Assembly (NCBI RefSeq): GCF_001553625.1
Contig: NZ_CP014230.1
Span: forward strand, 1,736,001 to 1,800,000
Source of the DNA: Desulfomicrobium orale DSM 12838
Lineage (GTDB): Bacteria; Desulfobacterota; Desulfovibrionia; Desulfovibrionales; Desulfomicrobiaceae
Length of the DNA: 64,000 nucleotides
Reading direction: 5' to 3'
The notes under the pieces are model-generated. The model made no database searches. It worked only from the letters and a program-made list of their open reading frames with translations, and was not told the DNA's origin. Positions within the stretch are counted from its first letter, which is position 1, and each line of letters begins with the position of its first letter. The translations under genes were made by a program, and so were the position numbers. Below, one piece after another: positions 13,630 through 46,671 of this stretch.

Positions 13630-13705
13630 TGGGGCGTCGCCAAGCTGGCAAGGCAACGGGTTTTGGTTCCGTCATTCGGAGGTTCGAATCCTCCCGCCCC
13701 AGCCA
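13630..13705 (+). tRNA. tRNA-Gln (anticodon TTG)
   Basis: The sequence folds as a full cloverleaf. A 7-bp acceptor stem pairs 13630-13636 with 13695-13701, followed by discriminator G and an encoded CCA. The anticodon loop TTTTGGT carries TTG, read as CAA (glutamine). The T arm has GGAGG-TTCGAAT-CCTCC. The T-A first pair is characteristic of bacterial tRNA-Gln. It sits between ispE and prs, and probably shares their transcript. Confidence 0.95.
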
Positions 13706-13733
13706 ATTTTCATAATATTATGAAGGCATCGTC

Positions 13734-14678
13734 ATGGCACGCGTAGGCGAACTGAAGATTGTCACGGGAACGGCCAACCCGGCACTGGCTCTGCGTATCT
13801 GCGATCATCTGGGCTGCAAGCTTTCCCCGGCGCTGGTGGACACCTTCAGCGACGGGGAAATCCGGATCGAGATGAGCGACAATGTGCGCGGAGACGATGT
13901 CTATGTGGTGCAGCCCACGTGCGCTCCGGTGAACCACAACCTGATGGAGCTGTGTCTGATGCTGGACGCCCTGAAGCGGGCCAGCGCAGGCCGGGTGACG
14001 GCGGTGGTGCCGTATTTCGGGTATGCCAGGCAGGACCGCAAGGTGGTCCCGCGGGTGCCCATCAGCGCCAAGATGGTGGCGGACTTCATCACTGTAGCGG
14101 GCGTGGACCGGGTGCTGACCATAGATCTGCATTCCGGACAGATTCAGGGTTTCTTCGACAAACCTGTGGACAACCTGTATGCGGCGCAAATCCTGCTGGA
14201 TTACATCCGCAGGCTGGGCGATAACCTCATCGTAGTCTCTCCCGACGCCGGAGGAACGGAACGGGCCCGGGCCTACGCTAAACGGCTGGGTGTGGGGCTG
14301 GCCATTGTGGACAAGCGCCGCGAAGGTCCGAATCAGGCTCACGCCATGCAGCTTATCGGTGACGTCAAAGGTAAGATCGCCGTGGTTCTGGATGATATGA
14401 TCGATACCGCCGGGACTATGACCGCGGCCGGCAATCTGCTGGCCGAGCATGGTGCCGAGGGAGTGGTGGCCTGCGCCACGCACGCCGTCCTTTCGGGCCC
14501 TGCCGTGGAGCGGCTGATCAGTTCCGCCTTTTCGCAGATCATTGTCACCGATACCATTCCCCTCAATCCCAAGGCCGCGGCCAGTGACAAGTTCAAGGTC
14601 ATTTCCGTGGGCAGTCTGATCGCCAAGGCCATACACAATATCCATTCCGAATCTTCGGTCAGCGTGCTTTTCAGCTGA
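13734..14678 (+). CDS. prs: Ribose-phosphate pyrophosphokinase
   Basis: Prs makes PRPP from ribose 5-phosphate and ATP for nucleotide, histidine and tryptophan synthesis. The 314 residues are standard. The N-terminal LKIVTGTANPALALRICDHLG, the flexible ATP loop YFGYARQDRKVVPRVPISAK, the metal site DLHSGQIQGFF, the catalytic VVSPDAGGTERARAYAKRLG and the PRPP loop VVLDDMIDTAGTMTAAGNLL are all visible. It starts 28 bases after the tRNA. rplY follows 32 bases downstream behind AAGGAGTACAGC. Confidence 0.97.
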   Translation: MARVGELKIVTGTANPALALRICDHLGCKLSPALVDTFSDGEIRIEMSDNVRGDDVYVVQPTCAPVNHNLMELCLMLDALKRASAGRVTAVVPYFGYARQDRKVVPRVPISAKMVADFITVAGVDRVLTIDLHSGQIQGFFDKPVDNLYAAQILLDYIRRLGDNLIVVSPDAGGTERARAYAKRLGVGLAIVDKRREGPNQAHAMQLIGDVKGKIAVVLDDMIDTAGTMTAAGNLLAEHGAEGVVACATHAVLSGPAVERLISSAFSQIIVTDTIPLNPKAAASDKFKVISVGSLIAKAIHNIHSESSVSVLFS

Positions 14679-14710
14679 GCGCAGCCGGTTTTCGACTTAA
14701 GGAGTACAGC

Positions 14711-15307
14711 ATGTCTGAAGTCATGAGTTTGCAGTTGAAGCGCCGCGAAGAGCGGGGCAAGGGGCCCTGTTCCCGTCTGCGTGCCAGTGGTCTGGTCCCC
14801 GGAGTGTTCTATAATTCCAAGGGAGAGAATATTTCCTTCACTGTGGACAACTTGGCTCTGGGCAAGGCCTTTGAGAAGGTTCGCTACTCGAAGATGCTTG
14901 AACTTGAAATCGACATGGACGGGAAGGTGGAGAAGCGCAACGCCCTTTTCAAGAGCCTGGTTTCTCACCCGGTGAAGCGCCGTTACGACCATGTGGATTT
15001 TATCGGCGTGGACCTGGACAAGGAAGTCGAAGTCACGGTCCCGGTGGAAGTTCGCGGCAGAGCCAAGGGCATCGTTCTGGGCGGCAAGCTGGAGCTGTAT
15101 CAGGAACGCGTGCTGGTGCGCTGCCTGCCCGCGGCCATTCCGGATTCCATTGGTTTCGACATTACGGAGCTGAACATCGGGGACAAGGTCTTTGTTGATC
15201 AGCTGGCCATGCCTGAAGGTGTCAAGGCTGTTTACGACCGCAATTACCTCGTGCTCGCCATTCTGGCCGGACGCGGCGCAAAGGCCGGCGAAGAAGAAGA
15301 GGTCTAG
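14711..15307 (+). CDS. rplY: 50S ribosomal protein L25 (long, CTC/TL5 type)
   Basis: The protein is 198 residues, the two-domain form of L25 that binds 5S rRNA. The N-terminal L25 domain shows RRREERGKGPCSRLRASGLVPGVFYNSKG and SHPVKRRYDHVDFIGVD. The C-terminal TL5-like beta domain (VTVPVEVRGRAKGIVLGGKLELYQERVLVRCLP) ends in an acidic tail (GEEEEV). The ATG at 14711 follows AAGGAGTACAGC. A strong terminator lies directly after the stop, so the ispE-prs-rplY run probably ends here. Confidence 0.96.
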   Translation: MSEVMSLQLKRREERGKGPCSRLRASGLVPGVFYNSKGENISFTVDNLALGKAFEKVRYSKMLELEIDMDGKVEKRNALFKSLVSHPVKRRYDHVDFIGVDLDKEVEVTVPVEVRGRAKGIVLGGKLELYQERVLVRCLPAAIPDSIGFDITELNIGDKVFVDQLAMPEGVKAVYDRNYLVLAILAGRGAKAGEEEEV

Positions 15308-15317
15308 ATTTCACACC

Positions 15318-15346
15318 GGGCTCCGCCGCGCGGAGCCCTCTTTTTT
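15318..15346 (+). terminator. Rho-independent terminator after rplY
   Basis: GGGCTCCG (15318-15325) pairs with CGGAGCCC (15331-15338) across a short loop and is followed by TCTTTTTT. It lies 11 bases after the rplY stop. Confidence 0.9.
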
Positions 15347-15378
15347 CCGCTTTTTCCTTTCGTTATTGACGGTTCCCC

Positions 15379-15972
15379 ATGGCATATGACGGCCTGATCG
15401 TGGGTTTGGGCAATCCGGGACGCGGATACGCCCGAACCAGGCATAATTTCGGTTTTCTGCTTGCGGACTGGCTGGTCAGAGCATGGAATACGCAACCCGG
15501 ATCGTTTTGCGAGCCGCGCCGGGCGAAAAACGCCGAGGTCTGGGACGTGACCGAGGAATATGGGGCACGACGCTGGCTGTTGGTCAAGCCACAGACATTT
15601 ATGAATCTGAGTGGGCAGGCCGTGGGAGAATTGAGCCGGAAAAACGGCATCTCTCCGGATCGGGTGCTCGTCCTGCATGATGAACTCGATCTTTCCTTCG
15701 GCACGATCCGTTTGAAATTTTCTGGAGGCCTGGCCGGGCACAATGGACTGAAATCCGTGGCCGCCCATCTGGGAACCCAGGATTTTGTGCGGCTGAGGCT
15801 GGGCATCGGACGGCCGGATGATGGAACTCCCATGGCCGATTATGTCCTGCGCGGTTTTACTCCCGAGGAATGGAGCAGGATGGACGGTCTTTTGGAGATG
15901 GCCGGGGAAGCGGTCCTCGATTTCTGCCGTGAAGGCCGGGATGCGGCCATGGCCAGGCTGCACTCCCGTTGA
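15379..15972 (+). CDS. pth: Peptidyl-tRNA hydrolase
   Basis: Pth releases peptides from stalled peptidyl-tRNAs. The 197 residues match. Family motifs are GLIVGLGNPGRGYARTRHNFGFLLAD with the catalytic His of RHNFGF, LVKPQTFMNLSGQAV, VLHDELDLSFGTIRLKFSGGLAGHNGLKSVAAHLGTQDFVRLRLGIGRP, and DYVLRGFTPEE. It begins 32 bases after the rplY terminator, so it either has its own promoter or depends on read-through. The pairing with rplY is conserved in many bacteria. Confidence 0.96.
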   Translation: MAYDGLIVGLGNPGRGYARTRHNFGFLLADWLVRAWNTQPGSFCEPRRAKNAEVWDVTEEYGARRWLLVKPQTFMNLSGQAVGELSRKNGISPDRVLVLHDELDLSFGTIRLKFSGGLAGHNGLKSVAAHLGTQDFVRLRLGIGRPDDGTPMADYVLRGFTPEEWSRMDGLLEMAGEAVLDFCREGRDAAMARLHSR

Positions 15973-16110
15973 GCCGCATCGCCCGTTTGCCTTGGGGATA
16001 AGGCGTATGCCGAAAGATCCCGGCGGAGTCCGGAGCGGAACTTTTGCTTGGCACGATCCGGCATTGGATCGCGGAAATCCTTTCTTCCAAAACCCGGAAG
16101 CCCCTGCTGG

Positions 16111-16139
16111 TGGACTGCATAGCAATTTTCGCCTATACA
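16111..16139 (+). promoter_or_regulatory. Candidate sigma70-type promoter for carD
   Basis: TGGACT (16111-16116) and TATACA (16134-16139) are separated by 17 bases and lie 44 bases before the carD start. The -10 is close to consensus and the -35 matches at four of six positions. This is a pattern call only. Confidence 0.45.
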
Positions 16140-16182
16140 GGCCGCCTTATGTTGGTTGATTCTGTTTCCCTGGAGGTCGCTT

Positions 16183-16719
16183 GTGTTTTCACTTGATGAG
16201 CTTGTCGTCTACCCCGCGCAGGGGGTCGGTAAGATCGAACGGATCGAAACTCAGGAGATAGGCGGGGTACCCACGGAACTGATCATCGTCCGCATTCTGA
16301 GCAACAACGTGACGCTGATGGTGCCCGTCAAGACCGCGCAAAATGTCGGCCTGCGGGGCATATACACTGCCGAGCAGGGCAGGGAGATTCTTCTTTACCT
16401 TCAGGATCGCTCCGATTTCACCGGCTATTCCGGTCAGAACTGGAACCGGCGGTATCGTGAGTATTCCGAAAAACTCAAAAGCAGCAATCTGCGTGATGTG
16501 GCCTACGTGCTGAAGGAGCTGATCCTCATCGGCAAGGACAAGGAGCTGTCTTTTGGGGAGCGCCGTCTGCTGGAGCAGGCCATGGGGCTTATTTCTCTGG
16601 AACTTTCCTTTGCCCTGGGCCAGGAGCAGGCCGAGGTGAAGAAATCCATCGAGGCGCGTTTCGCGGATATTCTGCGTAAGGAAAGCGCCGACGATGCTGC
16701 GGAAGCGGAAGAGGAGTAG
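16183..16719 (+). CDS. CarD/CdnL-family RNA polymerase-binding regulator
   Basis: CarD-type proteins bind the RNA polymerase beta subunit and stabilise the open promoter complex. I choose the GTG at 16183 because TGGAGG lies 6 bases upstream and it starts directly with the conserved FSLDELVVYPAQGVGKIERIE. The protein is 178 residues. The N-terminal Tudor-like RNA polymerase interaction domain covers ~1-60 (VTLMVPVKTAQNVGLR). The C-terminal helical DNA-binding part includes NWNRRYREYSEKLKSSNLRDVAYVLKELI and FGERRLLEQAMGLISLELSFALG. An acidic tail ends the protein. A terminator follows immediately, and the rho gene would be next but for an inserted IS. Confidence 0.9.
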   Translation: MFSLDELVVYPAQGVGKIERIETQEIGGVPTELIIVRILSNNVTLMVPVKTAQNVGLRGIYTAEQGREILLYLQDRSDFTGYSGQNWNRRYREYSEKLKSSNLRDVAYVLKELILIGKDKELSFGERRLLEQAMGLISLELSFALGQEQAEVKKSIEARFADILRKESADDAAEAEEE

Positions 16720-42159: not shown

Positions 42160-42196
42160 AGCGCGCCGCTTGGAGACAAGCGGCGCGCTTTTTTTG
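42160..42196 (+). terminator. Rho-independent terminator of the hmc operon
   Basis: AGCGCGCCGCTT (42160-42171) and AAGCGGCGCGCT pair perfectly around the loop GGAGAC and are followed by seven T. It lies 23 bases after hmcF. Confidence 0.95.
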
Positions 42197-42298
42197 TTAG
42201 GTATTACCAATTTATTTTGAGCCAATGCCTGTTGATCTGGAGGGTATTGTAGAATCGGGATAAACCATCATGTTGACAAACAGGTATTTTGTCGATTT

Positions 42299-42306
42299 TT
42301 GATTTT
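42299..42306. repeat. Target-site duplication, left copy (TTGATTTT)
   Basis: TTGATTTT abuts the left end of the IS1595-type element and recurs directly after its right end at 43866-43873. An 8-bp duplication is the hallmark of IS1595-family insertion. Confidence 0.88.
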
Positions 42307-42911
42307 GGGTCATGCCTAGTCCATGAGTCTCCATTCGACTATAAGGCTAGTCACGACAATGAAAAACAAGTATGCGAAGCGTTCAAGAATTTCAGAGGCC
42401 AAAGTCCGACAAATAGTGAAGCTGTTTGCCGTGGATTTGAATGCCCTGCAGATAGCTGAAATAGCCGGGGTAAATCGTAATACCGCGAACCGTTATCTGG
42501 CTGCTTTCCGAGAGAGGATTGCCCGGTTCTGCGAGGCGGAGTCTCCTGTTCAAGGCGAAGTTGAGGTTGATGAAAGCTATTTTGGCGCATGCCGCGTTAA
42601 GGGAGTCAGAGGCCGAGGAGCCAAGGGTAAAACTATTGTGTTCGGCTTATTCAAGCGCGACGGTCGCGTTTATACCGAAATTGTCCCGGACTGTTCAAAA
42701 ATCACCCTCCAAGGGATCATCCGGGGCCGCGTGAAACTTGAAAGTATTATTCACTCTGATGGCTGGCGCGGCTATGATGGTCTCGTAGACCTAGGCTACC
42801 AAAAACACTTCCGGGTTGAGCATGGCAACAATGAATTTGCCAATAAAAACTCACACATTAACGGCATTGAGAGCTTCTGGGCTTTTGCCAAAACACGACT
42901 TGTTCGTTTTA

Positions 42912-43732
42912 GGGTGTGTTTGCAAACTTTATAACCAGCGTGGTTTGGTGTAGCTTTTGGACATGTGTTATACCGATATTTCCGATGAAACCTGGCAACG
43001 GCTTGAGCCCGTTCTGCCGCTTGAGGGTTCGCCCAAAGGCGGCCGTCCGGCCAAAGATAAACGAACATTCATAAATGCAATCATCTGGCTGCTGCGCACC
43101 GGGGCTCCCTGGAGGGCCCTGCCGAAAGAGTATGGGTCATGGAATGCCGTGTATTCCCGCTTTCGGCGTTGGCAGATAAAAGGATCCTGGAAAGCAGTCT
43201 TTCTCGCTCTGGCGTCTGACCCCGATCTCGAAGCGGTAATGATTGACGGTACGTACATCCATGCCCACAAACATTCGGCTGGCGCAAAAGGGGGCAGCAC
43301 AGACAAGCTCTGGGCCGCAGTCGCGGAGGTTTTACCTCCAAGCTGCATGCACAGGTAGACGCGCTCGGCAATCCTGTATCGTTTTTCCTTACAGGAGGTG
43401 AATGCGCGGATATCAGTGTTGCACCACAATTACTTGAAGGGGTTCGTGATTGCACTGTCATTGCCGATAAAGGGTATGACAGCGAGCCGTTAGTTCAACT
43501 TCTTGAAGCAAGAGGCTGTACCGTAGTTATTCCTCCACGCTCAAATCGTAAAACACCTCGTCGGTATGATCGGCATCTTTATAAGGAACGGCACCTTGTT
43601 GAATGCTTTTTCAGTAAAATCAAAGAGTACCGCAGAGTGGCAACACGTTATGAAAAGCTTGCCCAGACTTTTCTTTCTTTCGTTTACCTGGCAGCTTCAA
43701 TGATTTGGATCAAATAGTTTGCAAACACACCC
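42912..43732. mobile_element. IS5-family insertion sequence nested in the IS1595-type element
   Basis: The element is 821 bp with 17-bp terminal inverted repeats (GGGTGTGTTTGCAAACT at 42912, complement ending at 43732). TA is duplicated at 42910-42911 and 43733-43734. Its terminal repeats and transposase differ from the IS5-family element at 16792-17671, so the window holds two distinct IS5 types. It is younger than the IS1595-type element that contains it. Confidence 0.9.
42963..43717 (+). CDS. IS5-family transposase, probable programmed -1 frameshift
   Basis: The first frame starts at ATG 42963 (MCYTDISDETWQRLEPVLPLEG) and includes RRTFINAIIWLLRTGAPWRALP-like sequence and the first Asp in AVMIDGTYIHAHKHSAGAKGG. 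That frame would stop at 43358. A -1 shift at the AAAAGGGGG run near 43290 leads into QALGRSRGGFTSKLHAQVD, then VIADKGYDSEPLVQLLEARG (second Asp) and HLVECFFSKIKEYRRVATRYEK (Glu), ending at TAG 43715-43717. Both halves are intact, so a functional transposase by frameshifting is likely. TTG 42957 is an alternative start. Confidence 0.85.
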
Positions 43733-43865
43733 TAGGGGTTTGCCCAAGCACACTTTTTACTTTCATTTGAAAGAATGTGAATTTCGCTTTAACCATAGAA
43801 ACGAAGATAGTTATAAACTTCTGCTCAAAATGCTCAGAGAAAATCCACTCAGCTAGGCATGACCC

Positions 43866-44009
43866 TTGATTTTTAAACGGACTGTCAAAGAAGATAACAC
43901 TGTAGCATAGGCCTCGAAATTTTTAGTGCCAGTGTAGTTTCGAACATGGCCGGTACAGAACTCTTTTGTTTTGGCAGCCTCATGCATCTCCCCCAAGGAG
44001 GGCTACTCC
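43866..44009 (+). promoter_or_regulatory. Leader region of the helicase gene, cut by the IS insertion
   Basis: This begins with the right copy of the TTGATTTT duplication. Before the insertion it was continuous with 42197-42306, where GACAAA and TTTTGTC form an inverted repeat and TTGACA (42274-42279) could be a -35. The helicase's own promoter may thus lie to the left of the IS elements. AAGGAGGG just before 44010 is the ribosome-binding site. Confidence 0.4.
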
Positions 44010-46625
44010 ATGGCATTTAAAATTCCCCAGAAATCTTCGGTATCCATCAAAGACCCTGAATCGTTGTTCCGTGATCTGAGGGAACGTACCGTAGAAGGGC
44101 TTCTTGCGCAGCAGGCCGACATGCTTCGCAAATACATGGAGCACGTTGATAAGCCAGACATAGCACTTGAGCTGCCCACCGGCAGTGGTAAGACCCTGGT
44201 TGGCCTCCTGATCGCTGAGTGGCGTAGGAGAACGAAACAAGAGAGATGCGTGCTGCTCTGTCCTACCAAACAGCTTGTCCATCAGGTCGTTGAACAGGCC
44301 AAAGAAAAATACGGAATCAACGCTCTTGATTTCTCAGGTTCCAAACACCAGTACCCGGAGGCCGATAAGACCGCCTTTAATAATTGCGAATCAATAGGCG
44401 TTGCCACCTATAGTGCTCTGTTCAACACAAATCCGTTTTTCAGCGACGTCCATACACTCATTTTTGATGATGCCCACGCCGCCGAGAATTATGTGTCGAG
44501 TTTCTGGTCGTTGGAGGTCCGGCGCTATCAGGATGAATCCACCTTCGATGCAATCTGGCAGATCATCGCGCCTTACACCACGGAAAATGACCAGCTCCGA
44601 TACGATCAGGGCAATGAGGGATCGCTTGATACGTCATTCGTGAACAAGGTTCCAACGCCATATTTACTCGAGTGCAGGACCGCTCTGACGGCAGCGATTG
44701 ACAATGCCTCCAGAGACGATGAGAGCCCGGAGGAATACGGTTATCGATGGCGCATGATCAGAGATCACCTCCATGCCTGCCATCTCTATTACTCCAGCAA
44801 TTCCATTCTCATTCGTCCTCTTATAGCGCCCACCAAGAGCTTTGCGCCGTTTCAGAATGCGCGGCAGCGCATTTATATGTCCGCGACTCTCGGAGAAGGC
44901 GGGGATCTGGAAAGAATTTTCGGGCGGAAGAAAATCGAACGGATACCTGCTCCAGAGGGCTGGGATAAGCAGGGAATCGGTCGACGTTTCTTCGTGTTTC
45001 CTATGCGGAATTGGGATGAAGCGGATTCATTGAGTCTTGCGATTTCCTGGACTACGAAATTTGACAGAGCACTCGTCCTCACCCCAAGCAACCGCGATAC
45101 TGATAAAGTCAGAAAAGCCATTGGAGCACTTCCGACGACGCAGGATCATACCCTCTTTGACGCCGCACAATTGGAGGCGTCGAAGAAATCATTCACCCAG
45201 TCCAGTTCCGCCATTGCGGTTCTGGCGAACAGGTATGACGGAATCGATCTGATCGGAGACGAATGCAGGTACCTGATTATCTATGATCTTCCGGAGTCTA
45301 CAAATCTGCAGGAGCGCTTCATCATCAGCCGCCTTGGGGCCTCTGTTCTCTTCCGGGTTCGCATCCGCACCAGAATAACTCAGGCGGTAGGAAGATGCAC
45401 ACGTTCATCAACCGATTACGCGCTCGTGGTGATCATCGGCGACAAGGTGCATCAGTATTTCCACATGCCGGAAAAGCGAGAAACACTGCATCCGGAACTT
45501 CAGGCCGAAGTCAATTTCGGTGTCGAACAATCAAAAGTCGATAACTCGTCTGAACTGGGGGATAACATCGACATATTCGTTGACCATGGAGAAGAGTGGA
45601 GATCGGCCGATGACTATATACTGCGAACAAGAGGCGAACTGACTCAATCGCCCATACCATCGGCAAAGCAGCTCCAAGATTCTGTTATTCATGAAGTGAA
45701 ATTTCACGATGCTTTTTGGTCCGGAGATTTTGACAGCGCTCTCTCTTCAGCAAAAGACGTGTTGGCCCATCTTGCCGGCGGGGATGATCTGAAGGGCTAT
45801 TCTGCTCTTTGGAATTACCTTGCCGGCTCGGCAGCCTACCAGGCGAAGCAACCACAGGTGGCTCAAGAACATTTTTCTGCTGCCTTTTCATGCGCCAGTA
45901 CGTTGCCGTGGCTCAAACAGATTCAAAAGCTGCTCTCAAACCAAGCGCAGGAAGTGCCTGTCGAGGTCATTTATGGAGAGCGCATCGAGCGTATAGAAGG
46001 TGTCCTCGAACGGTTTGGAAAGTCCGGCAGCGTAAAAATCGAAAAATATTTCCAGGCCATCCGGGAAGGGCTTTCGAGTACGGAGGCGAAGTCGTTTGAA
46101 GCAGCTCAGGTCAAGCTCGGTTGCCTGCTGGGCTTTGAATCGGGGAACACGGAGCGATCCGGTGATCCGGACCCGTGGTGGATCTTTGGGCGACAGGGCG
46201 TTATTTTTGAGGATTACACGGCAACCGGAGAGAATCCGGTCATCTCAAAAAATAAAACACTTCAGGCCAAGGCCCATCCGGACACTCTCGCAGCAAAATA
46301 CCCAGGAGTAAGTTTCTCAGTCGTGTTCTGCTCGACTTCGGACAAATTAGATGATGCCGCAAAACCTCACACGGGCGATGTCTTTTACATCAGCGTTGAA
46401 GACTTCAAAAAGTTTTCAGAAGAGTGCATGACAACAATGCGAGCGCTATGGGACTCTTTCCAGTCGCCTGGAGTTATCGAATGGAGGGAACGTGCTGCAC
46501 GCAAGCTGGTCGAAGCGAAACTGCGCAGTGATGATATTCTGGCAAGATTGAAGAGCAAAAAACTTTCCTCGTTGGCAGGCGGCGGACAAAAACGACCTGC
46601 TTCAAAATTGTCTTCAACATTCTGA
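44010..46625 (+). CDS. SF2 helicase with PD-(D/E)XK-like C-terminal domain, candidate defence gene
   Basis: The protein is 871 residues from the ATG at 44010, behind AAGGAGGG. Helicase motifs: Q-like region and Walker A LELPTGSGKTLVGLL (~residue 50), CPTKQLVHQ (Ia), LIFDDAHAAENYV (II, DDAH), YMSATLGEGGDLERIFG (III) and ITQAVGRCTRSSTDYALVV (VI). The SATLGEGG form recalls XPD/DinG-like helicases. A helical middle region follows. The last ~200 residues (LLGFESGNTERSGDPDPWW, GVIFEDYTATGENPVISKNKTLQAKAHPD, AAKPHTGDVFYISVEDF) resemble a restriction-endonuclease-like domain. The usual ExK reads EDY, so catalysis is doubtful. Composition is poorer in G+C than the neighbours, and IS elements adjoin it. 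Confidence 0.8.
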   Translation: MAFKIPQKSSVSIKDPESLFRDLRERTVEGLLAQQADMLRKYMEHVDKPDIALELPTGSGKTLVGLLIAEWRRRTKQERCVLLCPTKQLVHQVVEQAKEKYGINALDFSGSKHQYPEADKTAFNNCESIGVATYSALFNTNPFFSDVHTLIFDDAHAAENYVSSFWSLEVRRYQDESTFDAIWQIIAPYTTENDQLRYDQGNEGSLDTSFVNKVPTPYLLECRTALTAAIDNASRDDESPEEYGYRWRMIRDHLHACHLYYSSNSILIRPLIAPTKSFAPFQNARQRIYMSATLGEGGDLERIFGRKKIERIPAPEGWDKQGIGRRFFVFPMRNWDEADSLSLAISWTTKFDRALVLTPSNRDTDKVRKAIGALPTTQDHTLFDAAQLEASKKSFTQSSSAIAVLANRYDGIDLIGDECRYLIIYDLPESTNLQERFIISRLGASVLFRVRIRTRITQAVGRCTRSSTDYALVVIIGDKVHQYFHMPEKRETLHPELQAEVNFGVEQSKVDNSSELGDNIDIFVDHGEEWRSADDYILRTRGELTQSPIPSAKQLQDSVIHEVKFHDAFWSGDFDSALSSAKDVLAHLAGGDDLKGYSALWNYLAGSAAYQAKQPQVAQEHFSAAFSCASTLPWLKQIQKLLSNQAQEVPVEVIYGERIERIEGVLERFGKSGSVKIEKYFQAIREGLSSTEAKSFEAAQVKLGCLLGFESGNTERSGDPDPWWIFGRQGVIFEDYTATGENPVISKNKTLQAKAHPDTLAAKYPGVSFSVVFCSTSDKLDDAAKPHTGDVFYISVEDFKKFSEECMTTMRALWDSFQSPGVIEWRERAARKLVEAKLRSDDILARLKSKKLSSLAGGGQKRPASKLSSTF

Positions 46626-46648
46626 TAATCAAAGGGTACATCCCAAGT

Positions 46649-46671
46649 GAAGCCTGACTCCATCAGGCTTC
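46649..46671. repeat. Hairpin after the helicase gene
   Basis: GAAGCCTGA (46649-46657) and TCAGGCTTC (46663-46671) form a perfect 9-bp stem with loop CTCCA. It lies 23 bases after the helicase stop. There is no T run, but it may still end or protect the transcript. Confidence 0.55.

Follow-up and report, generated by a model that had tools for sequence, protein, structure and literature searches.

The window analyzed here comprises 64,000 nucleotides of Desulfomicrobium orale DSM 12838 (contig NZ_CP014230.1, positions 1,736,001 to 1,800,000), and at positions 44010-46625 of its forward strand lies an uninterrupted reading frame of 871 amino acids, an hna-like gene that we place in the PDC-S28/Hna family. 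A ribosome-binding-site-like sequence (AAGGAGGG, 43995-44002, forward strand) stands directly 5' of the frame, and promoter-like sites near the gene are no commoner than in shuffled sequence. The original prediction had set the gene between IS elements and a housekeeping gene in DNA of foreign composition, and both observations hold: an interrupted ISXO2/IS1595-type transposase lies to the left and tgt to the right on the opposite strand, and the GC content of the hna region is 0.50-0.53 compared with ~0.57-0.63 in the flanks. The IS1595-type element (42307-43865), a neighbor and not a component of the system, ends in matching 13-bp sequences and is bordered by a target duplication of 8 bp (42299-42306 and 43866-43873). 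An IS4/5-family element (42911-43733; 17-bp perfect ends) interrupts its transposase, and the transposase of this inner element is in turn in two frames. We do not favor mobilization of hna by the adjacent IS, as the IS1595-type element carries its own 8-bp duplication beside the upstream scar discussed below and the whole stretch 42195-46664 is missing from the nearest relative (G006), where ~7.8 kb of other genes takes its place. Across the genus, the interval from an Fe-S protein gene to tgt varies from ~1.8 to 7.9 kb in genomes with both genes on one contig (L132-L141), and in the nearest relative (L132) it holds transporter-like ORFs and other genes.

Within the encoded protein, the core of SF2 helicase domain 1 (approximately residues 33-160; 44106-44489) is defined by the Pfam DEAD and ResIII matches together with the invariant columns Q35, G58-S-G-K61-T and D153-D-A-H156, and helicase domain 2 (approximately residues 352-482; 45063-45455) matches Helicase_C_2 and contains a motif VI region reading QAVGRCTR. 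These three generic helicase domains, each over its cut-off, are the only Pfam matches. The secondary structure of an AF2 model (31 sequences, pLDDT 85.4) places a helical region behind the helicase (approximately residues 495-690; 45492-46079), followed by a PD-(D/E)XK nuclease core that the model and alignment to Hna locate at approximately residues 693-795 (46086-46394). Alignment assigns motif II to P720-D721 (46167-46172) and the ExK motif to E734-D735-Y736 (46209-46217), with Tyr at the position of K729 in Sinorhizobium meliloti Hna; alignment and model together point to K749 (46254-46256), in the following helix, as a candidate migrated lysine. All of these features lie on the forward strand. 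The protein had been described from its letters as an XPD/DinG-flavored SF2 helicase fused to a helical region and a PD-(D/E)XK-like domain with Tyr at the ExK lysine position, a description with which the Pfam matches, the modeled fold and the motif alignment agree, and the C-terminus has a nuclease fold.

The family to which the protein belongs emerges from several searches. The PADLOC PDC-S28 profile matches it over its whole length (2e-113, residues 8-848 of 871), and a phmmer search of PDB sequences returned a sole full-length relative, 10UJ/9YHN/9YKJ (E 1.3e-39, residues 12-840), of which 10UJ and 9YKJ are the Hna monomer and dimer (PMC13381803). The solved fold closest to the AF2 model is likewise the Hna monomer (Foldseek 3.1e-37), and VIA-align superposes the two with a Z of 35.9 over 769 aligned residues at an rmsd of 9.7, a high whole-chain value that probably reflects how the domains are placed; DinG ranks second at 18.2. 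When the S. meliloti 1021 pSymA protein (L025) was read directly, P712, D713, E727 and K729 matched the published positions once 15 missing N-terminal residues were added, and this agreement, together with the 8.1e-303 match of the PDC-S28 model to S. meliloti Hna, equates PDC-S28 with Hna. The window protein shares ~21-24% identity with S. meliloti Hna, from which a long branch separates it, and it is near certain to be a member of the Hna family. The original prediction of a single-gene anti-phage protein thus finds its counterpart in a family that joins an SF2 helicase to a PD-(D/E)XK fold, whereas its statement that the protein matches no named system was mistaken; the whole-length match, the Hna fold and the link through the model rule out a new, nameless system. 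Distribution of the family is patchy: a search of 150 genomes found the window's own genome, four clear matches and two weak ones, the gene occurs in 0 of 15 other genomes of the genus and in 3 of 395 of the phylum (own genome included), and homologues also occur on plasmids and viral contigs, although a second scan of viral contigs with the Tyr/His clade yielded no additional member.

Ten distinct loci (L001-L009 and L011) encode proteins that share 80% identity or more with that of the window, a sample biased toward close relatives because the scan of genome contigs used exact peptide patterns. Their sources include sulfate- and metal-reducing lineages, a gammaproteobacterial MAG and a Nitrospirae MAG, and one comes from the window's own order. 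In seven of the ten (L001, L003, L005, L006, L007, L008 and L011 (extended as L095)), hna is situated between hsdS and hsdR and behind two hsdM genes, giving the type I restriction-modification (RM) gene order hsdM1-hsdM2-hsdS-hna-hsdR, and we infer that the five genes are cotranscribed; in L001 the hna stop overlaps the hsdR start. The remaining three loci do not show the hsdS-hna-hsdR order: hna of L004 neighbors hsdS-like, DUF5655 and RhuM genes, L002 retains the upstream scar but has no hsd gene within 7.8 kb upstream on a contig that ends soon after hna, and L009, on a short contig, has no hsdR within 1.7 kb downstream. A relative with the canonical lysine (L096) lies directly downstream of hsdS-hsdR. 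The description of the gene as alone therefore stands for the window and fails for most of its close relatives, and a check of homologues' neighbors for defense genes found the hsd operon in those seven loci and not in L002, L004 or L009. Homologues occur mostly in RM or mobile contexts and not consistently among DNA-repair genes, an exception being the homologue L022, which a conjugative plasmid carries next to recN and genes for helicases.

Between hsdS and hna the relatives also carry a piece of ~100 bp that resembles the beginning of hsdR; compared with the hsdR start of L011, it shows 83-91% identity across 95-99 bp. In several loci the scar upstream of hna is similar to the beginning of hsdR in both L011 and L005. 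The likeness of this piece to the L011 hsdR start suggests that hna was inserted at the 5' end of an hsdR gene; exact direct repeats around hna were not found inside single loci. Two loci have further genes of their own: two additional ORFs (445 and 273 aa) fall between hsdM2 and hsdS in L095 (10353-12508), and the RM-Hna operon of L001 is flanked (947-2722 and 13685-16415) by a TraG_N conjugation gene and a PDC-M68-like pair of DUF4263/CTD10-type and DUF2326 proteins, flanks that suggest that this operon is probably on a mobile defense island. Our literature search returned no account of hna inside an hsd operon in the text it covered; the founding Hna study (Sather et al. 2023), covered here through PMC12445080 and PMC13381803, may already report some of these findings. 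Neither the hsd-operon setting nor the Tyr/His-Lys749 subclade described below appears in the available part of the Hna account in PMC13381803.

Comparison with these operons suggests that the window hna has strayed from the type I RM operon in which close relatives keep the gene. No hsd genes are present at the window locus, and the stretch immediately upstream of hna (43887-43986, forward strand) is a decayed scar with homology to the relatives' hsdR-5'-end-like piece, its similarity score being reached in 0 of 2000 shuffles against each of four relatives and in 16 of 2000 against a fifth. Four tests for an hsdR remnant downstream of the gene gave no signal (424-1014 of 2000 shuffles reached the score), and a search of the rest of the genome for a full hsdR of the operon type found only a 34% partial match. 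The gene has also lost its ancestral stop (TGA to CGA), so that ten amino acids are added by read-through. Standing alone, as the original prediction had it, is consequently not the ancestral state, given the hsdS-hna-hsdR order of most close relatives and the scar that the window retains.

Substitution patterns distinguish this copy from its relatives. Pairwise dN/dS is 0.155 between the window gene and L001 and 0.074 between L001 and L006, and a three-point hand estimate assigns ~0.21 to the window branch and ~0.09 to that of L001; by these estimates the gene is under mildly relaxed constraint and not neutral. In addition, 15 window-only changes fall at sites invariant in nine close relatives, compared with 4-7 such changes in three of those relatives. 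A reading that we hold possible but doubtful is that the family is defensive and the window copy is a pseudogene-like remnant, inert after the loss of operon, stop codon and perhaps promoter, as would accord with its orphaned state, the decayed scar, the IS insertion upstream, the raised dN/dS and the excess of changes at invariant sites. The frame nevertheless remains open over 871 codons with its helicase and nuclease motifs intact, the ribosome-binding-like site is retained and dN/dS is still far below 1, and the orphan copy may still be functional.

Active-site residues were counted in 56 aligned rows, from which we omitted L010, L018 (the window itself), L015-L017 (helicase-only matches, E ~1e-4), L062-L089 (28 weak viral loci) and L090-L094 (repeat loci); L020, a duplicate of L004, is counted in these 56 rows and not in the 41 dereplicated rows, and L009 and L030 are partial proteins, the latter kept out of the tree. 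All 56 rows have D721 and E734, and 55 have P720; position 736 is Lys in 38 and Tyr or His in 18. Lys749 is present in every one of the 18 Tyr/His rows and absent from every one of the 38 Lys736 rows, a pattern that persists after dereplication at 80% (present in 7/7, absent from 34/34). In the Tyr/His rows, which retain it down to ~40% identity, this lysine sits 13 residues past position 736, in the helix that follows core strand three. On a tree of 40 of the 41 dereplicated rows (L030 omitted), the six Tyr/His rows can be explained by one change (78% of bootstrap trees), and since one change suffices, the correlation is probably a single evolutionary event that was retained afterwards. A shift of this catalytic-motif lysine from motif III to motif IV, accompanied by a similar correlation between positions, is described for other PD-(D/E)XK families (PMC1913061). 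We infer that K749 probably takes over the role of the lost ExK lysine and that the nuclease should be active. Two proteins close to the Tyr/His clade (L024 and L038) have the canonical Lys (E-D-K) and another Lys at the residue immediately preceding position 749; they may represent an intermediate step in the relocation of the lysine. Elsewhere in the subclade, a His-type copy on an E. coli plasmid (L030, 2444-6872) is cut in two by an IS91-family transposase, and its matching part is also found on at least four other E. coli plasmids among the matches listed.

The K729A substitution leaves S. meliloti Hna without nuclease activity (PMC13381803), and the equivalent residue in the window protein is Tyr; loss of this lysine could instead have produced a nuclease-dead paralogue that acts as an ssDNA-stimulated ATPase or clamp, serving as a sensor or type I RM accessory and keeping K749 for DNA binding. 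We think this unlikely in view of the invariant carboxylates, the co-occurrence of Lys749 with Tyr/His in all rows that have lost the lysine and the low dN/dS among relatives.

What the protein may do is best judged against S. meliloti Hna, an abortive-infection ATPase and 3'-5' ssDNA exonuclease that is held as an ATP-bound auto-inhibited dimer until phage SSB releases the nuclease, and for which unwinding was not detected (PMC13381803). The two proteins (the latter from pSymA; PDB 10UJ, 9YKJ and 9YHN) are alike in length, domain order, whole-length homology and fold, in the PD and E of the nuclease motif and in Q39, kept as Q35 in the window protein, and the window gives no sign of further subunits. 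They differ in sequence, in the Tyr at the K729 position with its candidate lysine in the next helix, in the type I RM setting of the window protein's close relatives, and in that T30, D31 and P34 of the S. meliloti dimer interface and R36 of its ATP site have no counterpart in the aligned window protein. The window belongs to an 18-row clade, with S. meliloti Hna among 22 rows beyond a fully supported branch, and the missing counterparts suggest that regulation in the window clade may differ; taken with the changed position of the essential lysine, they suggest that even catalysis could.

Other systems are more distant. Resemblance to XPD and to DinG/ExoDinG, which share the SF2 core and of which ExoDinG is likewise a 3'-5' ssDNA exonuclease (PMC13381803), is limited to the helicase part (Z ~18). 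That the protein is a DinG/XPD-type helicase for DNA repair or housekeeping and not a defense protein, as this resemblance and the L022 homologue beside recN might suggest, is very improbable and we reject it, since the NCBIfam DinG models score far below their cut-offs (18.2/789, 27.6/547.7 and 14.4/598 bits), the whole-length Hna/PDC-S28 match stands well above DinG, and homologues are patchily distributed on plasmids, on viral contigs and beside RM genes. Hachiman (HamAB), Nhi and Gabija follow a comparable helicase and nuclease logic, and stimulation by SSB is also reported for Hachiman and Nhi (PMC13381803); Hachiman consists of two proteins, however, in contrast to the single polypeptide here, and the HamB profile matches weakly (18.5 bits, E 9.9e-5) over residues 55-157 only and not over the whole length. 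Scans of the neighbors in the window (Pfam) and in L001 (Pfam and PADLOC) found no HamA gene. In gene setting, the relatives of hna can be likened to EcoprrI, where PrrC is described as a latent suicide enzyme whose gene is embedded in a type I RM operon (PMC3874165); both place an effector gene within an hsd operon, although PrrC is an anticodon nuclease.

We consider it likely that the window encodes an Hna-family protein of a Tyr/His subclade, with probable takeover by K749, that is an orphan of the type I RM operon arrangement and may still function. One polypeptide would fuse an XPD/DinG-like SF2 ATPase to a PD-(D/E)XK nuclease, kept active by K749 in the following helix in place of the motif-III lysine; by homology to Hna, a phage-made trigger would release the protein, which would then degrade ssDNA from 3' ends and bring about abortive infection. 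The window itself would represent hna with a decayed hsdR-derived scar, stripped of the hsd genes and of the ancestral stop. For the relatives we offer, tentatively and with some doubt, a composite defense unit, a type I RM operon with a built-in Hna-type nuclease between hsdS and hsdR, in which the RM enzyme would provide first-line protection and the Hna-type protein, its active site rebuilt by the move of the lysine to the next helix, would be a back-up that fires on free 3' ends left by restriction and end-processing or, alternatively, in response to a phage that evades or inhibits the RM enzyme.

The Hna family is already known, and the variant of it seen here is a subclade whose nuclease site appears to have been rebuilt, with most of the close relatives lying in type I RM operons. 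In the papers covered (PMC13381803, PMC12445080), the Hna mechanism rests on one S. meliloti protein. A subclade that dispenses with the essential lysine position and the dimer-interface residues, and that has RM-embedded relatives, would reveal which parts of the Hna mechanism are general and, besides PrrC, would add another suicide-type effector housed in an hsd operon.
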